Shown here: positions 6,414 to 20,234 of the stretch, piece by piece | How positions within the stretch are numbered: position 1 is the stretch's first letter | Layout of the letters: the number at the start of each line of letters is the position of its first letter | IMG/VR virus record: IMGVR_UViG_3300025131_000529 | Location: 1-20,738 of that record | Strand: one strand, 5' to 3' | DNA length: 20,738 nt | Origin: a virus | Position numbers and translations under genes: made by a program | The notes under the pieces: generated by a model | What the model was told of the DNA's origin: nothing | The model's input: the letters and a program-made list of their open reading frames with translations, nothing else | Database searches by the model: none

Positions 6414-7631
6414 ATGGCCTTAACTACTGCGGTTACTGAAGCTCTTAAAGAACATTACAAACCCCAACGAATCAAAGAGATGGTTTACAAGAATAACCCT
6501 CTCCTTGCTCTAATTCCCAAATATACGAAATTCGGCGGCGAGAATATGCCAATGCCGATTATCACCACCGGACCACAACGGCGGTCGGCTACGTTTGCCA
6601 CTGGGCAAGCTAACACCTCAACCTCTAGTCTGAAGCAGTTCCTCTTAACTCGCGTTAGTGATTATTCCTTTGCGTCAATCTCGCATGAGGCAATCAAGGC
6701 GAGCCAGGGCAACGCTGATGCATTTATCCGATATGCCACCATGGAAATCGACGGGGCTATTCATAGCCTTAAGCGTTCTTTGGCTGTTGGTCTATACCGT
6801 GATGGTTCTGGCTCCATTGGCCAGTCTGAAGATAACCCAGATGGTAGTTATGCAAATCTGACGCTCATCGATGAAGAGGATGTATCCAATTTTGAAGTTG
6901 GGATGGAAATTGCTTTCTACGATAACGACGGAACTGGTAACGGCCCAGGTACAGCCAGAAGCGCAACCCGCGTAATTAGTGCGATTGACCGATCTGCTAC
7001 TCTTAAGTCGTTAACTTTTTCATCAAACATCCCCGTGGACGTTGCTTACCAAGACCACCTTGTTCAGGCGGGCGATTTGGATGCAAAGATTAGCGGCCTA
7101 GAAGCTTGGTGTCCTGCATCGGCTCCGGGCGCGACATCTTTCTTTGGTGTTGATCGTACAACGGACACTAGCCGCTTAGGTGGCAATCGTTCTGATGGTA
7201 GCGCAAAGCCAATTGAAGAGGCGTTGATTGACGGCTTGAGTTTGGCAGCGCGTAACGGTGGGGCTCCAAGTCATATTTTTGTGGATTATGCTACCTATGC
7301 AAATCTTGAAAAGGCCCTTGGGTCCAAGGTCCAGTATGACAAGCTAAAGGCTTCCGATGCCAATGTTGGTTTTACGTCTTTGAAGATTCACGGCCCCGCT
7401 GGAACGGTTGACGTTATTCCTGACATTAACTGCCAGCCAAATGTTGCTTGGGCGCTTCAACTAGATACTTGGTCCTTGAATAGCTTGGGTGAAGCCCCGC
7501 AAATTCTTGACCTTGATGGAAACAACATGCTTCGAGAAGCTTCTGCTGATGCTTACGAGGTTCGCATGGGTTTTTACGGAAACTGTGCCACTGTTGCTCC
7601 TGGTTGGAATTGCCGAATTGCCTTGGCTTAA
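6414..7631 (+). CDS. Major capsid protein (HK97-fold type)
   Basis: The 405-residue length and the position directly after the scaffold fit the shell subunit. The start MALTTAVTEALKEHY..NNPLLALIPK is a typical N-arm. A long region with LTRVSDYSFASISHEAIKAS and a helix around AFIRYATMEIDGAIHSLKRSL corresponds to the spine helix area. The C-terminal half contains the common coat pattern GAPSHIFVDYATYANLEKAL followed by strands (FTSLKIHGPAGTVDVIPD) and ends with EVRMGFYGNCATVAPGWNCRIAL, as in many podovirus-like coat proteins. I infer an HK97-like fold from family resemblance; no protease domain or cleavage site is evident. Its ribosome binding site (GAGGAA) lies in the 3' arm of the hairpin at 6387-6411. 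Confidence 0.9.
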   Translation: MALTTAVTEALKEHYKPQRIKEMVYKNNPLLALIPKYTKFGGENMPMPIITTGPQRRSATFATGQANTSTSSLKQFLLTRVSDYSFASISHEAIKASQGNADAFIRYATMEIDGAIHSLKRSLAVGLYRDGSGSIGQSEDNPDGSYANLTLIDEEDVSNFEVGMEIAFYDNDGTGNGPGTARSATRVISAIDRSATLKSLTFSSNIPVDVAYQDHLVQAGDLDAKISGLEAWCPASAPGATSFFGVDRTTDTSRLGGNRSDGSAKPIEEALIDGLSLAARNGGAPSHIFVDYATYANLEKALGSKVQYDKLKASDANVGFTSLKIHGPAGTVDVIPDINCQPNVAWALQLDTWSLNSLGEAPQILDLDGNNMLREASADAYEVRMGFYGNCATVAPGWNCRIALA

Positions 7632-14170: not shown

Positions 14171-15100
14171 ATGGCTGAAAAATCAACATACGCAGAAGAT
14201 GGCGTCATGGCCCCTGACTGGTGGAAAACGCAATACAAGCATGGAAAACGCTTCGCGGGGCAGGTGGGTGATTTTTTTGACCCCGATTCGGGCGGGCTTG
14301 CCAAGATGCTCGGGGTGGAAGAAAAGAAATTTGGCGTCCAGCCGAAATCCGCTGAGTACTACCAGGACCGAAATGTTGGTCGGCGTCAGGTGTTGCAAGA
14401 CATCAAAGAACTCCAACGCCTCCAAAGGACGGGTGGGGCCGCTACCAGAGAAGCAAGAGCGCTTCAGCAAGAACAGGCGAAAGGTCAGATTGCCCTACAG
14501 CGGGGTATGGATACCGGTGGGCGTGGTGAACGTATGGGCACCGAGGCCGCAGCGGAATCCTACGTTCAGGCGATGGCTCCGGTAGCAATGATAAAAGAAG
14601 CTGAAACCGCAGGTTACACAAAGCAAGAAGCTGCTGCTGCTGCCATGCTTGTTATGGATGATAAAAAATTTCAAGACGAGCTTGATAAACTTGGCGGGGA
14701 TATTGCTCGCGGGGAAGCTCAAGCAACCCAAGCGGGCAGGGCGGGGTTTATGCAAAAGGCTGGCGCGATTGGTGGCGCTATCCTTGCCTTCAGTGACGAA
14801 CGCGCAAAAACGAATATCCGCCCCATCTCCAAGGCCGCTCCTAGAGATTTCCTAGAGAAGCTAAACACAGGAGGGTTTGACTATCGCCCTGAATTTGGAG
14901 GGGAGCGCGGGCGAATGGGGCCACTACTAAACGAAGAAGTGGCAAAGACGGAAGTGGGAAGAAGCTTTATCAAGCGTGACCCCCAAACCGGGTACCTCGT
15001 AACAGACCCCAACGCCGCAGCATTAACAACTATGGCGCTTCTCAAGCAACAGAACGAACGAATTAACGCACTAGAGAAGTCAGGAAAGGGGCGTAAGTAA
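14171..15100 (+). CDS. Helical virion protein with C-terminal S74/chaperone-like domain
   Basis: A 309-residue protein of two parts. Residues 1-190 are Gln/Ala/Glu/Arg-rich and mainly helical (for example 73-112 and 124-160). A short hydrophobic stretch FMQKAGAIGGAILAF (193-207) leads into a domain at 208-302 that resembles the intramolecular chaperone (peptidase S74) domain of phage spikes and fibres. It begins SDERAKTNIRPI (208-219), continues DFLEKLNTGGFDYRPE, then GxMGPLLNEEV in the place of the usual G-x-x-AQE-V, then a YLVTDPNAAALTTMALLKQQ stretch, and ends in a helix NERINALE. In known members cleavage occurs at the Ser-Asp, here S208-D209. The AQ motif is changed, so activity is uncertain. 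There is no beta-helix spike. AGGA at 14160-14163 spans the previous stop. Confidence 0.65.
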   Translation: MAEKSTYAEDGVMAPDWWKTQYKHGKRFAGQVGDFFDPDSGGLAKMLGVEEKKFGVQPKSAEYYQDRNVGRRQVLQDIKELQRLQRTGGAATREARALQQEQAKGQIALQRGMDTGGRGERMGTEAAAESYVQAMAPVAMIKEAETAGYTKQEAAAAAMLVMDDKKFQDELDKLGGDIARGEAQATQAGRAGFMQKAGAIGGAILAFSDERAKTNIRPISKAAPRDFLEKLNTGGFDYRPEFGGERGRMGPLLNEEVAKTEVGRSFIKRDPQTGYLVTDPNAAALTTMALLKQQNERINALEKSGKGRK

Positions 15101-16704
15101 TGGTTTGGGAAAGAGCCGTAGAGGCACCGCTGTCGCTGTCAATGACACCAGAAGAGGAGCGTGAGCGGCAAATTCAACTCGCAGAACAACGTTTGCGGGC
15201 ACAAGCCGCTGGACAAGCGCGATTAACCGAACAGGGACTTGCTGAAGAGGCCGCCATTAGAGAAGAGTCTAGGCGTCAGGAAGAACTAGCCCTTAGTCCA
15301 GAAGAAGCGGCCTATCGGCGCTTGCACGGGGGCAGCCCTTCGCCGGACTATGTGCCCGAACCGGCGTTGCTAGACCCCAATGTGCCTTATGTCGCGCCAG
15401 TACCAGCCGGGGCACCAACCGCACCAGCCGCACCAGTCGACCCAACCGTACCAGCGGGGGGACCACCAGAGGAACCGAAAGGCCGAGACTACGATGCCGA
15501 TATAAGTAAAGTCATGGGCCGGTACATGGGGGCAGACGGGCGGTTTCAAGAAGCCGAGGGCGCATGGGACACTAGGCGCGGTGAGATAGCCGAGCAATAT
15601 AGAACCGGTAAAGAGGCGAGGGTTACGCAGGCCCAGCAGGAACTCGACAAGGCGAAGAGTGTTCTAGGTACCGCCACTGAAAAACTCTCAAATTGGGAAA
15701 TTAACCCACAACGGGCTTTTCCTAATGCTTTCTCTAAAATTACCGCTGTCATTAGTGTGGCTATGGGTGCTTATGCTCAAGGCTTATCGGGCGGCAAACT
15801 CCCAAACACTGCTTTAGGGATTATCGATAACGCTATCAAAACCGATATCGACGCCCAAAAAATGGAGTACCAAAAACTCAAGGGCTTGGTGGACGAAAAG
15901 CGAAACGTCTACGGGATGGCTATGCGGTTGTTGGGTAGCGCCGAACAAGCAGAGCAAGTTGCCTATACTGCCGCGTACCAGACTTACCAGGCAGAAATTA
16001 ATAAGATTGGGAAAGAGTATGGCCTTGAGTACGGGGCTATAAATTTAAGCAGCAAGATTGACCAAGGGAACCGCAAGCTTGAGGTAAACGCAGCGAAGGC
16101 GGCAGGCAGCGGCGGGAAGCTACCTGTTGACATGAGAAAGTCCATGACCGCTTTTAGTTCATTAAAGGACAAACTGAAGCGTATGTGGAGTCTGTCGAAG
16201 GACATAAACATGGCCAGGGGCTACCTCGATGTCTTTGTGCCTGGCGAGACTGATACGAAGGAGTTCGACCGTTTGGGCGAGCAAGCAGCGGCGGATATGG
16301 TTTATGCCATTAGTGGGGTCACGGCGCGGCAAGAGGAGTACGACCGGGCAAGGAAATGGGCACCTAAATCGACTGATTTTGAAGGCATGCGGGTCGCTAA
16401 AATGGTGGGGATTATGGAGTATTCCTTAGAAAAAGGGACAGAGCATTACCACACCCTGACCTCTGGACAGAGAGCAAGGCTTTCCCCGCAATTACGCGCT
16501 ATGTACGAAATGTCTCCGGAGCAGCGGCGGGGCACAATCCTGACCCTGCTTGAAGGACAAGGCCACAACATTCAAGCCAAGGGATGGGAGGCAGAGGTTG
16601 GTGGTATAAAATCTAGTATGAAATCGGATGGGTGGTTAGCAGGCCCGCCAGGCTCAGAGACGGAATCCTGGATGGGCGGGGAGCGCGTAACCGGAAAAAA
16701 GTAA
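15100..16704 (+). CDS. Internal virion (ejection) protein, frame-0 product of the frameshift gene
   Basis: A 534-residue protein. Residues 1-75 are a charged Gln/Glu/Arg/Ala-rich helix or coiled coil. Residues 80-125 are a Pro/Ala/Val linker. From 130 to about 300 there is a long helical domain with an embedded hydrophobic Gly/Ala segment (FSKITAVISVAMGAYAQGLSGG, in outline 211-232) followed by NTALGIIDNAIKTDIDAQKMEYQ (236-258). From memory, this hydrophobic-then-DIxAQ pattern recurs in large virion proteins of phages. The C-terminal part (340-500) is again helical. A role inside the head and in the ejection conduit is inferred. AGGAAAGGGG at 15081-15090 lies 9 bases before ATG 15100, which overlaps the upstream TAA. 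The gene ends GGA AAA AAG TAA, the core of a -1 frameshift signal that would extend the protein into the lytic transglycosylase. Confidence 0.7.
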   Translation: MVWERAVEAPLSLSMTPEEERERQIQLAEQRLRAQAAGQARLTEQGLAEEAAIREESRRQEELALSPEEAAYRRLHGGSPSPDYVPEPALLDPNVPYVAPVPAGAPTAPAAPVDPTVPAGGPPEEPKGRDYDADISKVMGRYMGADGRFQEAEGAWDTRRGEIAEQYRTGKEARVTQAQQELDKAKSVLGTATEKLSNWEINPQRAFPNAFSKITAVISVAMGAYAQGLSGGKLPNTALGIIDNAIKTDIDAQKMEYQKLKGLVDEKRNVYGMAMRLLGSAEQAEQVAYTAAYQTYQAEINKIGKEYGLEYGAINLSSKIDQGNRKLEVNAAKAAGSGGKLPVDMRKSMTAFSSLKDKLKRMWSLSKDINMARGYLDVFVPGETDTKEFDRLGEQAAADMVYAISGVTARQEEYDRARKWAPKSTDFEGMRVAKMVGIMEYSLEKGTEHYHTLTSGQRARLSPQLRAMYEMSPEQRRGTILTLLEGQGHNIQAKGWEAEVGGIKSSMKSDGWLAGPPGSETESWMGGERVTGKK

Positions 16705-17318
16705 CAAGGGCGGGCGGTAGTGCCGCTTTGCCCGGTTCGCAGTACGCGGCCTTCAAGGGGCAGGGTGGCGGTGGCCGTAAGAAAACGGCGGCTATGGTTG
16801 GAGCTATTGCGAAAGAGCAAGGGATTGACCCCGGTACACTTGTTGCGATGGGGTTAGTTGAATCCGGCCTTAACCCTTCCGCGAAAGCTAAGAAAGGCAC
16901 GGCTAAGGGGCTGTTTCAGTTTATCGATAGTACCTGGAGCGAGATGATGAATAAGCATGGGAAAAAATTGGGTATTCCTTCCGACGCAAAAGCCACGGAC
17001 CCGGTTGCCTCAACCTTGTTAGCGGTAGAATTCTTACGCGGCAATGCTAGGGCACTATCAGGCAAGGCCGGGGTTCCTAAAAAGCTAGGTGCGCGTGACT
17101 ACTACGCAGCACACTTCTTTGGGGCCGGGGGTGCAGCAAAGTTCTACAAAGAAATGCAAAAGGACCCAAACGCTAAAGCGAAAGACATTTTTCCAAAACC
17201 GGCAAAGGCAAACAAGAATGTTTTCTATAGTGGCTCTGGGACGGCTAGGTCGTTAAGGGAAGTTTACGATTCTTTTGGGCGTAAACTAAGCAAGTACGGC
17301 GCAGGCGTGGGAGCATAG
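16632..17318 (+). CDS. Lytic transglycosylase (SLT-like) domain, probably made as a -1 frameshift extension
   Basis: The open frame codes for a lysozyme-like lytic transglycosylase that cuts peptidoglycan. The helix AAMVGAIAKEQGIDPGTLVAMGLVESGLNP has the catalytic Glu (codon 16860-16862) in the ES motif. KGTAKGLFQFIDSTW is the second hallmark, and DYYAAHFFGAGGAAKFYK plus ANKNVFYSG near the end is typical of phage internal-virion transglycosylases. As a stand-alone gene it is weak: the longest frame begins at GTG 16632 with no good ribosome binding site, and the first ATG (16794) lacks one and would start only about 20 residues before the catalytic Glu. The frame joins the 534-residue protein exactly at the slippery site, giving a predicted fusion 15100-17318 of 739 residues (534 + 205, starting at V of GTA 16701, catalytic Glu at 588). 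T7 gp16 is a known ejection protein that carries a transglycosylase. Confidence 0.85.
   Translation: MVSRPARLRDGILDGRGARNRKKVTRAGGSAALPGSQYAAFKGQGGGGRKKTAAMVGAIAKEQGIDPGTLVAMGLVESGLNPSAKAKKGTAKGLFQFIDSTWSEMMNKHGKKLGIPSDAKATDPVASTLLAVEFLRGNARALSGKAGVPKKLGARDYYAAHFFGAGGAAKFYKEMQKDPNAKAKDIFPKPAKANKNVFYSGSGTARSLREVYDSFGRKLSKYGAGVGA
16678..16733 (+). promoter_or_regulatory. Programmed -1 ribosomal frameshift signal (dnaX-like)
   Basis: Three elements are seen. A Shine-Dalgarno-like GGGGAG lies at 16678-16683. The slippery heptamer A_AAA_AAG at 16695-16701 is correctly phased in the frame of the 534-residue protein and directly followed by its TAA (16702-16704). After a 6-base spacer comes a stem-loop: 16708-16711 pairs with 16730-16733, T16729 is bulged, 16712-16717 pairs with 16723-16728 (two G-T wobbles), and the loop is TAGTG. 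Slipping back one base continues GTA ACA AGG into the transglycosylase frame. In E. coli dnaX the same heptamer is stimulated by an AGGGAG about 10 bases upstream and a stem-loop 5-6 bases downstream. Confidence 0.82.
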
Positions 17319-17321
17319 TGG

Positions 17322-20234
17322 ATGCCTAGACTTTACAACTTCCAAACGAACTCTTACGAGGAAATCCCTGAAGACCTTGTCAGGGAAAAGGTATTATCGC
17401 GGCAGTACGCTTTCACGGATTCAGAGAAGGTTCCCGTTATTGCTCCCGATGGTAGTCGCCACTTAATCCCTGGAACTAAAGCGCTTGAGGCTTTCGGCCG
17501 TGGGGGAAACTACGGGAATACTAAAGACTGGGCTCGAATTGCCCGCAAAGAAGAATACGGTGAGGACTCTTGGGAAAACTATCTAGGGGCCTCTATAGCC
17601 GGTCTTGCGCGTGGCGCTACTCTTGGAATGTCCGATGTTGTCTTGCGTGAAATCCTCGGCAAAGAACGAATGCAGACTTGGCGCGAAGAGTTTAGCGGCG
17701 TTAGCACTGCGACTGAAATCGGGGGGGCTGTTCTCCCGGCTTTGTTTTCTGGCGGTGGGACTACAGCGGCGACCGGCGCGAGGTTAGCGGCGAGGGGCCT
17801 AGCAAAAACTCCGGCTGCTGCCGTATTCAAGGGTGGGCGGCATTTAGAGGATGTAATCTCTGCGAGCAGGGTATTAAGCAGGGGCGCAAATAAGAATATT
17901 GCCTTAGACATTCTAAAAACCTCACTCCCAAAAGGTGTTGCAGGAGCGCTTGAAGGTGCCGCGTTTGGTGCGGGTACCACACTCACCGAAGTTATGCTTG
18001 GCGACCCCGAGGACGTTGGCGAATTGCTCTTAGCTAATGTTGGGTATAGTGCGTTGTTTGGTGGGCTGGGGAACGCCGGGATTAACGCTATGATGATGGG
18101 GGGCGCTGCCGGGACGAAGCAGCTTTCTAAGGGGTTTGCATCACTTTACGAGAAGACCACCGGGAATAAATTGTCTGTGTGGGGGCAAGAGAAGATTGCA
18201 AAATCAGTAGCGACCGTGATGGGGCGGGCTGACCCGGAGCAAGCAGCTTTGCAAACAACGGTGACGCCAAAAGCCAGGGCAAAACGTGGCGAAATCCGAA
18301 CGAAGATGGGCACCTTTGACGACCAGACGAAAGAGATCGTTGGCGAGTTGGATGGTGTGGCTGATGACATTGCAGTAGTCACTAAGGCATCCAGGGGCGA
18401 AGCAAAAAGAGAAGCAATCCGGCCGAGCATTTTTGACGATGTTGCCGAGGATGTGGCGGATACGGCTGCCGGGATTGGTAAACCGAAAGCCCCCGAAGTG
18501 AAGGCCCTGACCGAGGTTCATAGGACGCTCGGGGGCATTGTGGATGAGATAGACAACGTAGCAAAGGCTGAGGCTACCGGCACGTTTAAATGGCACGGTA
18601 AAGCTAGTAAAGCCCCGGACGCAGGAGGTTTTGCAGCGAGGTTAGAGAAAATCCTACAGGGGAATTGGGAAGGCGGTAGCCCCGCCCGGATTCTAGCAAA
18701 ATGGGTAGAGGACGTAACCGCTTCCGGCTCCTCCACAATCCGAGGCGTTGCCGAAGACGCTTTTCTAATGCTCGACGATTATAAAAAGTACACTGCACAA
18801 TTCGTTTTCGCTGGTAAAGACCGAGGAAAGGAAGAGATTTCCCAAGGGCTAGCCAATGGCATTATGAATATGTGGCGTCAGGTTCACCCTTTATTAGAAA
18901 ATGCTTCAATTTGGGGAAAAGCCGCGATTCATCAAAAAAACGTGAACGCCGCTTTTACCGACCTCCTGACGAAACAATCACGTTTTCGTGGTGTTTTTGG
19001 TTTTGGAAGAGGAACAAACTGGACGGACTCACGGAAGGTTAAAAAATTCCTTGAACAATTAGACGACCGCCCAGAGTGGAAAAGGGTTTATGAGGAATAC
19101 CTAGAAGCGGCACGGGTTTTCTCGGGCAAGGCGAAAGGGGCTTATACGTTTGCTGACGAAGCACTTGAGGCGGCGAATAGGTTGCCAACAAGATCGGCAT
19201 CAGCCAACGGTAGAGTTTCTAAGCTAACCCAAGAAATGGACGAAGCGCGGTTCATGTTCGGTACTACGGGGCTGAACGCTCAGACGGAACCAATCGCCGC
19301 GAAGATATTAGGCAACTTAGCCCGGAGAAGCATCGGCGGTTTAGCGGGTGGGTATGCCCTCGGTGGCCCAGGTGCCGCTATGGGTATCCTATTGGGCGGA
19401 ATTGCTGATGGTGCGGCAACCGCTAATCAATTAGCAGCAATAGAGTTTGCCATTAGCCGCGCTAGAAAAGGCTTCGAGAAAGGCTTAGACGACATCGTTG
19501 AACGCATGGCTAAGGGTGGCCCAGGCGGGACCATGGCAGCACGCCCCAATAGAACGAAACTTTTTCTAGCTCCACTGGCCGCGCAATTTGGTGAAGAGGC
19601 TCTTTCCCCGGCGGTGGATATGGCTCGCGATTATTTAACCGCAAAGGAACGGGCGAAGAAACTAGCAGACCCCCAAGCAGTGGAGGAGATGGCCAATAAA
19701 GTTGTGGCGCCCCTTAGAGAGATGCCCAACGTATCCGCAGCGATTAAGAATAAATTAATCGGCGGGCTATCCTATATCACTAACGAGTTTAAACCCGACA
19801 ATCGCACAATGGATGATGTGGTTATGGGCGTAAAAGAGCGCCCACCTACCGACAGCGAAAGAATGAAGATGGAGATTAAACTCGCGGTACTAGAAGACCC
19901 TACCGAGTTTTTAAGAAGCATCGAGAACCGCACATGTACCGGCACCCACGCTGATGCTATGCGGAAACTGTACCCAAAGCTTTACGCAATGTGCGAGGCG
20001 GGTATCTATGAGCGCGTTACTGATTTAGAAAATGCTGTCCCATTTGTAGACCGGCAAGTTCTTAGTATCGCGTTCAACCGGCCATTCGACGTTTCAAACA
20101 AACCCGAAAATATAACCATTTTACAAGCTTCCTATGGCGAAAAGTCAGAAGAAGAGACTACTATTAAATCAACCCCGTTGCTTAAGACTGATTTCGGTAA
20201 AGGCCCGACTGAAGTCGAAAAAGCTATGGCGTAA
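17322..20234 (+). CDS. Large internal virion (ejection) protein
   Basis: A 970-residue protein. A small N-terminal domain (MPRLYNFQTNSYEEIP... VPVIAPDGSRHLIP, 1-60) looks like a structural module with a beta-rich core. It is followed by Gly/Ala-rich, weakly hydrophobic segments at about 86-108 (GLARGATLGMSD), 128-165, 205-226, 235-265 and 663-711 (GGLAGGYALGGPGAAMGILLGG). These alternate with long charged helices. The pattern matches, from memory, very large virion proteins that follow the transglycosylase in podovirus-like genomes, and it suits a protein that is ejected and lines or crosses the host membrane (T7 gp15/gp16 role). No enzymatic motif is seen. A C-terminal part with NRTCTGTHADAMRKLYPKLY and PFVDRQVLSIAFNRP is probably a folded helical domain. 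GGGAG at 17309-17313 is 8 bases before the ATG, 3 bases behind the previous stop. Confidence 0.65.
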   Translation: MPRLYNFQTNSYEEIPEDLVREKVLSRQYAFTDSEKVPVIAPDGSRHLIPGTKALEAFGRGGNYGNTKDWARIARKEEYGEDSWENYLGASIAGLARGATLGMSDVVLREILGKERMQTWREEFSGVSTATEIGGAVLPALFSGGGTTAATGARLAARGLAKTPAAAVFKGGRHLEDVISASRVLSRGANKNIALDILKTSLPKGVAGALEGAAFGAGTTLTEVMLGDPEDVGELLLANVGYSALFGGLGNAGINAMMMGGAAGTKQLSKGFASLYEKTTGNKLSVWGQEKIAKSVATVMGRADPEQAALQTTVTPKARAKRGEIRTKMGTFDDQTKEIVGELDGVADDIAVVTKASRGEAKREAIRPSIFDDVAEDVADTAAGIGKPKAPEVKALTEVHRTLGGIVDEIDNVAKAEATGTFKWHGKASKAPDAGGFAARLEKILQGNWEGGSPARILAKWVEDVTASGSSTIRGVAEDAFLMLDDYKKYTAQFVFAGKDRGKEEISQGLANGIMNMWRQVHPLLENASIWGKAAIHQKNVNAAFTDLLTKQSRFRGVFGFGRGTNWTDSRKVKKFLEQLDDRPEWKRVYEEYLEAARVFSGKAKGAYTFADEALEAANRLPTRSASANGRVSKLTQEMDEARFMFGTTGLNAQTEPIAAKILGNLARRSIGGLAGGYALGGPGAAMGILLGGIADGAATANQLAAIEFAISRARKGFEKGLDDIVERMAKGGPGGTMAARPNRTKLFLAPLAAQFGEEALSPAVDMARDYLTAKERAKKLADPQAVEEMANKVVAPLREMPNVSAAIKNKLIGGLSYITNEFKPDNRTMDDVVMGVKERPPTDSERMKMEIKLAVLEDPTEFLRSIENRTCTGTHADAMRKLYPKLYAMCEAGIYERVTDLENAVPFVDRQVLSIAFNRPFDVSNKPENITILQASYGEKSEEETTIKSTPLLKTDFGKGPTEVEKAMA

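Follow-up and report, generated by a model that had tools for sequence, protein, structure and literature searches.

A candidate -1 frameshift site joining exchangeable peptidoglycan hydrolases to a structural protein in an uncultured phage family

Gene order and the carrier protein

The window, by which we mean the whole stretch of DNA analysed, is a 20.7-kb IMG/VR virus record of 20,738 nt. Its genes follow a podovirus-like order: terminase, a P22-like portal, a likely scaffold and a likely coat (6414-7631), structural and tail genes, and genes of unknown family. Several of the assignments in the structural region were made by order only. Before the terminase lie a gene resembling phosphoadenosine phosphosulfate reductase (132-1085; phrog_424, E 2e-48) and one that weakly matches acetyltransferases (1092-1673). 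The gene which concerns us here, termed the carrier gene (Table 1), is located downstream of the structural and tail genes. Upstream of it, a 309-aa protein (14171-15100) possesses a Peptidase_S74 chaperone domain (PF13884) near its C-terminus. The homologue of the latter protein in the related contig L001 (4143-4821) lacks this domain, and its last coil is encoded separately, by a 33-aa ORF having an ATG of its own.

The carrier has no family match in PHROG, Pfam or PDB, and its all-helical structural model (pLDDT 67) gave no significant fold match by Foldseek; an ejection role is therefore unconfirmed by structure. Nor could any sequence or fold homology to the known ejection proteins of the T7 and P22 type be detected in these same resources (PHROG, Pfam, PDB, Foldseek). 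A preliminary description of this DNA had named the product an ejection protein. The position of the gene after the tail genes agrees with that name, which, in the absence of a family or fold match, rests on this position and on the enzyme attached to the protein. Inferring from gene order, we regard the carrier as a probable internal or ejection protein. Its identification as a tail assembly chaperone or as the major capsid protein was considered and rejected, given the gene position, the presence of a separate likely coat gene, and the lack of a family match. GenBank phages searched with the carrier, the 970-aa product of the following gene, the portal and the coat gave no matches.

Table 1. 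Features of the carrier gene, its 3′-end and the adjoining reading frames in the window.
Feature	Position	Strand	Remarks
Zero-frame carrier gene, short product (P0001, 534 aa)	15100-16704	+	Family of 63 homologous ORFs; predicted all-helical
Shine-Dalgarno-like GGGGAG	16678-16683	+	11 nt 5′ of the heptamer
Slippery heptamer A_AAA_AAG	16695-16701	+	X_XXY_YYZ phase; supported by sequence, relatives and the count of ORF ends
-1-frame extension	16701-17318	+	205 codons, SLT domain; carrier fusion of 739 aa
Zero-frame stop TAA	16702-16704	+	Abuts the 3′-end of the heptamer; sequence
Putative stimulatory stem-loop	16708-16733	+	11 bp, 1-nt bulge, 3-nt loop; 6-nt spacer from the heptamer
Following gene, 970 aa	17322-20234	+	Adjoins the carrier in relatives; far edge of the hydrolase slot

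The junction at the end of the carrier gene

On inspection of the sequence, the 534-codon carrier ORF is seen to end with the codons ACC GGA AAA AAG TAA. The three sequence tests for a dnaX-type cassette are met in the window, these being an in-phase heptamer, a stem approximately 5-6 nt downstream, and an internal Shine-Dalgarno (SD) sequence approximately 10 nt upstream. The heptamer, its phase, the immediate stop and the GGGGAG at 11 bases, all of which had been pointed out in the preliminary description, are correct to the base. The stem-loop that it placed 6 bases downstream is likewise present, with 11 pairs and a 1-nt bulge where 10 bp had been given, and the -1 frame does run without a stop into the transglycosylase. 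Both the 11 pairs and the bulge belong to the minimum-energy fold of the hairpin (35 nt; -17.3 kcal/mol), which has a z-score of -2.0 against dinucleotide shuffles.

The duplex between GGGGAG and the anti-SD sequence is calculated at -7.3 kcal/mol. Equal or better binding is found at about 5% of positions, so that the element is not rare alone. Its counterpart in contig L010 is GGAGGGG (-9.8 kcal/mol), and it is missing from several of the M23-bearing relatives discussed below; taken by itself, the putative SD element is only weak evidence.

The -1-frame extension matches the SLT transglycosylase domain (PF01464, E 9e-11), and the motif of the catalytic Glu, LVESGLNP, is intact. The SLT of L001 is 95% identical to that of the window, and among the nearest cultured SLT sequences, at approximately 41%, are those of internal virion protein D from T7-like phages of Aeromonas and Escherichia.

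Relatives of the carrier and the hydrolase slot

When viral contigs were scanned with only the carrier or only the SLT as query, L001 was the sole match. The key to finding the family was the coat protein, which as a query led to 72 contigs; further contigs were reached with a carrier profile and with the N-terminus of the 970-aa following gene. The profile search yielded 63 non-redundant carrier ORFs, including that of the window. Two of these (L141 and L155) are zero-frame fusions, and their removal leaves a set of 61 in which the window is counted. A -1-frame hydrolase directly follows the carrier in nine members of this set, and each of these nine has A_AAA_AA[A/G] in phase among its final four codons; an in-phase heptamer near the stop is found in none of the 52 carriers without a hydrolase (Fisher 6e-11, relatedness ignored). 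In those of the 52 with a readable next gene, that gene begins almost immediately after the carrier. Large ORFs at the carrier position without a hydrolase gene downstream were found to contain no in-frame hydrolase domain. The heptamer is A_AAA_AAG in the window, L001, L010 and L013, and A_AAA_AAA in L051, L103, L104, L105 and L111. Contig L019 groups with the window, L001, L010 and L013, and has neither hydrolase nor heptamer. Across all fetched loci there are 643 distinct ends of ORFs of at least 200 codons, and an in-phase heptamer occurs within the last five codons of 11 of them. Nine of these belong to the hydrolase-bearing carriers, and the remaining two have -1 frames that stay open for just 5 and 43 codons.

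Three unrelated enzymes occupy the slot behind the heptamer: SLT in the window, L001 and L010, VanY/M15 in L013 (PF02557, E 5e-11), and Peptidase_M23 in L051, L103, L104, L105 and L111 (E about 1e-25). When 26 contigs were searched with SLT, VanY and M23, one copy of each enzyme was found, at the carrier junction, the exception being L017. This contig (IMGVR_UViG_3300025120_000321) contains an M23 domain at 26626-26955, within a 463-codon open frame far from the carrier, and the L017 carrier itself has no hydrolase. The tree requires at least four changes of hydrolase presence, and the SLT/VanY, M23 and in-frame M23 groups are all separate on it; unrelated hydrolases appear to have been acquired at the slippery site at least three separate times. 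Without use of the slip, it is difficult to account for non-homologous enzymes behind a common slippery site. Only one carrier relative, L125 (PBMF01000024.1, Chloroflexi MAG SP22), came from a genome assembly, where it lies on a contig labelled Chloroflexi. It has neither hydrolase nor heptamer, and the label is a possible hint at the host of the distant relatives.

The preliminary description had called for an alignment of homologues. Heptamer, phase and stem are kept in the relatives, with compensatory changes in L010, and a well-started separate hydrolase gene common to the homologues, which would have refuted the proposal, was not encountered. The agreement between the window and L001 was not accepted as evidence. 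Heptamer, stop and stem are as in the window, with the changes in the stem being pair-keeping or confined to the loop; the two have a segment of recent common origin, in which most of the DNA from 15538 to about 17680 shows 80-97% identity, so that the site would appear conserved regardless. This block of high identity (15538-17680) covers carrier and SLT, while the flanking coding DNA is mostly 40-65% identical, and a recent module exchange is its likely origin, judging from the sequence.

L010 is distant from the window (carrier 30%, SLT 52% identity). Following its A_AAA_AAG, the 6-nt spacer, the 11-bp stem and the position of the bulge all match the window. None of the 11 pairs is lost in the window, L001 or L010; the stems of the window and L010 differ by two double compensatory changes (C-G to G-C; G-C to C-G) and, in three further pairs, by a single pair-keeping change. 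L013 has GGA AAA AAG TAA as in the window, with a hairpin of high stability immediately downstream (-33.9 kcal/mol, z -6.1). A downstream hairpin is also found in L051 (z -4.2), the only one of the five M23 members with a strong stem; the other four, together with L141 and L155, are without one but have runs of nine (A9) or ten (A10) adenines. Owing to the GC-richness of the DNA, neither the window nor L010 stands out from shuffled sequences in the overall folding energy of the 60 nt 3′ of the heptamer; better evidence comes from the 35-38-nt hairpins and the covariation.

In L141 and L155 the carrier and an M23 domain (E about 1e-26) form a single ORF of 695 and 680 aa, respectively. The junction reads GGC AAA AAA AAA AGA CCT AGA and contains an A10 run, at which a -1 slip would read AAG ACC TAG and terminate at once, the stop lying two codons on. 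If the A10 is used, which we can only infer, these two would exhibit reversed polarity, with a long zero-frame and a short shifted product; the run may also be a mere lysine-rich linker. In a more distant group (L112 at 2243, L115 at 2429, L122 at 1) a conserved A9/A10 run (KARQKK[NS]YA) is located mid-gene, upstream of the carrier. The -1 frame closes a few codons past this run, which is possibly another slip-to-short site.

Frameshifting, its alternatives and known systems

We consider it roughly nine in ten probable that a programmed -1 frameshift occurs at the 3′-end of this phage structural gene. This is a judgement made from sequence, and slippage, its rate, incorporation into the virion and the ejection role are inferred. 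The hydrolase might instead be made as a separate protein from a start of its own, perhaps by reinitiation after the TAA, with the heptamer being incidental. Start codons do exist in the frames of the window, L001, L010 and L013: the window has possible weak starts at TTG 16728 and ATG 16794, ATGs precede the hydrolase domain in L010 and L013 too, and L104 and L105 have a GTG within the M23 domain with a purine-rich sequence upstream. The start position is not conserved, however, and in the window no SD precedes the ATG, and the TTG sits within the stem-loop. The distribution of the heptamer (9/9 versus 0/52) would, moreover, be a coincidence. Further evidence comes from the M23 clade. Here the A9 run never varies among the five carriers, even though their genes differ at 27-58% of fourfold sites and exchange AAA for AAG, or the reverse, at 12-48% of the lysines they have in common. 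Over the 26 -1-frame codons after the heptamer, pN is lower than pS (0.14 versus 0.54 for L103/L104; 0.27 versus 0.75 for L051/L104), and in L103, L104, L105 and L111 these same codons include no ATG, GTG or TTG. The -1 frame of this clade is under purifying selection from the heptamer onward, ahead of any start codon. In L111 the first start is an ATG at codon 51, beyond the HKGTDY zinc motif, so that a separate standard start cannot yield the enzyme and a change of frame is the simplest route. We regard an independent start as unlikely.

Transcriptional slippage, in which RNA polymerase inserts or omits an A within the A-run and a fraction of the mRNA consequently encodes the fusion directly, would achieve the same end. 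Runs of nine adenines slip in bacteria, and the dnaX gene of T. thermophilus uses transcriptional slippage (PMC5009743). Such runs are present in the M23 clade (A9) and in L141 and L155 (A10); seven of the 12 distinct runs of at least nine adenines in all fetched loci lie at the carrier-hydrolase junction, and most of these loci are without a strong stem. For the A9 and A10 clades it is a real alternative and the question is open. The window, L001, L010 and L013, in contrast, have no more than six adenines (A6) ahead of a G, corresponding to the ribosomal A_AAA_AAG site; the window's run does not meet the criterion for transcriptional slippage (approximately nine or more A or T), and a covarying stem at ribosomal spacing would be left without a role. 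As a general account slippage by the polymerase is thus quite improbable. On the strength of the A6-G run and this stem, ribosomal -1 frameshifting appears to be the best reading for the window. Whether the event is ribosomal or transcriptional, one gene would yield both a plain and a hydrolase-bearing carrier. The in-frame fusions of L141 and L155 could also be taken to suggest that an indel, through decay or misassembly, has split a single carrier-hydrolase gene whose frames are never crossed. Against this, frame, phase and heptamer are identical in nine distinct contigs with three enzymes, and the -1 frames are open for 131-229 codons, encode recognisable hydrolase domains and are under purifying selection; this explanation we find scarcely credible.

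Under programmed frameshifting, the majority of ribosomes would terminate at the TAA at 16702 and produce the 534-aa carrier. Some would stall ahead of the stem-loop, aided by pairing of GGGGAG with 16S rRNA, and these may slip by -1 on A_AAA_AAG to give the 739-aa carrier-SLT fusion. The carrier moiety would then bring the fusion into the particle at a fixed minority ratio, where the SLT could open peptidoglycan during genome delivery. Since the -1 slot of relatives holds other hydrolases, it can be viewed as an interchangeable socket with a logic like that of Gag-Pol. We think it likely, though inferred, that in this uncultured phage family such a frameshift socket adds exchangeable hydrolases, at a set minority ratio, to a virion protein that is probably ejected, and that it has at least three origins, one of them with reversed polarity.

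If this is true, a frameshift sets the number of structural protein copies that bear a wall-cutting enzyme, and the dosage of a virion hydrolase becomes directly testable; the enzymes behind the one slippery site (SLT, VanY/M15, M23) have been swapped in the course of evolution. Ordinary annotation misses such fused enzymes or calls them free-standing genes, and more of them could be revealed by scanning phage genomes for A-rich heptamers located between a structural gene and a hydrolase.

Each of -1 frameshifting, dnaX-like cassettes and virion hydrolases is already known, and among tailed phages it is mainly in tail chaperones and capsids that programmed frameshifts have been described. Tail assembly chaperones dominate the PRFect survey of phage frameshifts. 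The preliminary description knew of no account of a frameshift that doses a muralytic domain in an ejection protein, and we too found none of a frameshift attaching a hydrolase to a virion protein in the literature searched, the coverage of which was incomplete, so that absence is not proof. Nor did this literature yield a paper linking frameshifting either to internal virion or ejection proteins or to M23 enzymes.

The cassette of the window is much like that of E. coli dnaX (tau/gamma), with A_AAA_AAG, an internal SD upstream and an 11-bp hairpin 5-6 nt downstream. In the E. coli gene the spacer is 5 nt, the hairpin 11 bp and the efficiency 50-80% (PMC8861025). The E. coli shift results in the short product and that of the window in the long one, and the gene and its purpose are unrelated. 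A dnaX in which the shift makes the long product is found in a minority of bacteria (PMC5009743). L141 and L155 would match the polarity of E. coli dnaX.

The likeness to retroviral Gag-Pol is one of logic only, a -1 shift near the end of an ORF fusing a structural protein to an enzyme. In Gag-Pol the shift gives a fixed ratio of structural protein to enzyme in the particle; the genes, hosts and ribosomes are unrelated to those considered here, and for the window both ratio and incorporation are inferred only. Shearman, in a 1994 paper cited in PMC10885494, reportedly described a Lactococcus phage lysin arising from two overlapping genes, which is likewise a phage lytic enzyme with genes overlapping in different frames. 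That lysin is a lysis endolysin, whereas the window presents a fusion to a structural protein. With T7 gp16 and other virion hydrolases the window shares an SLT domain on a virion-delivered protein, its presence in the particle being inferred in our case. The SLT domain of gp16 is located at the N-terminus of the internal virion protein itself (PMC4283147), whereas that of the window is a C-terminal, frame-shifted appendix on a smaller carrier, for which no relation to gp16 could be detected. Finally, λ G/GT and T7 10A/10B resemble the window in that a -1 shift near the 3′-end of a gene places a C-terminal extension on a minority of copies. Unlike these, the extension in the window is an exchangeable peptidoglycan hydrolase, and the carrier is neither a capsid protein nor a tail chaperone.
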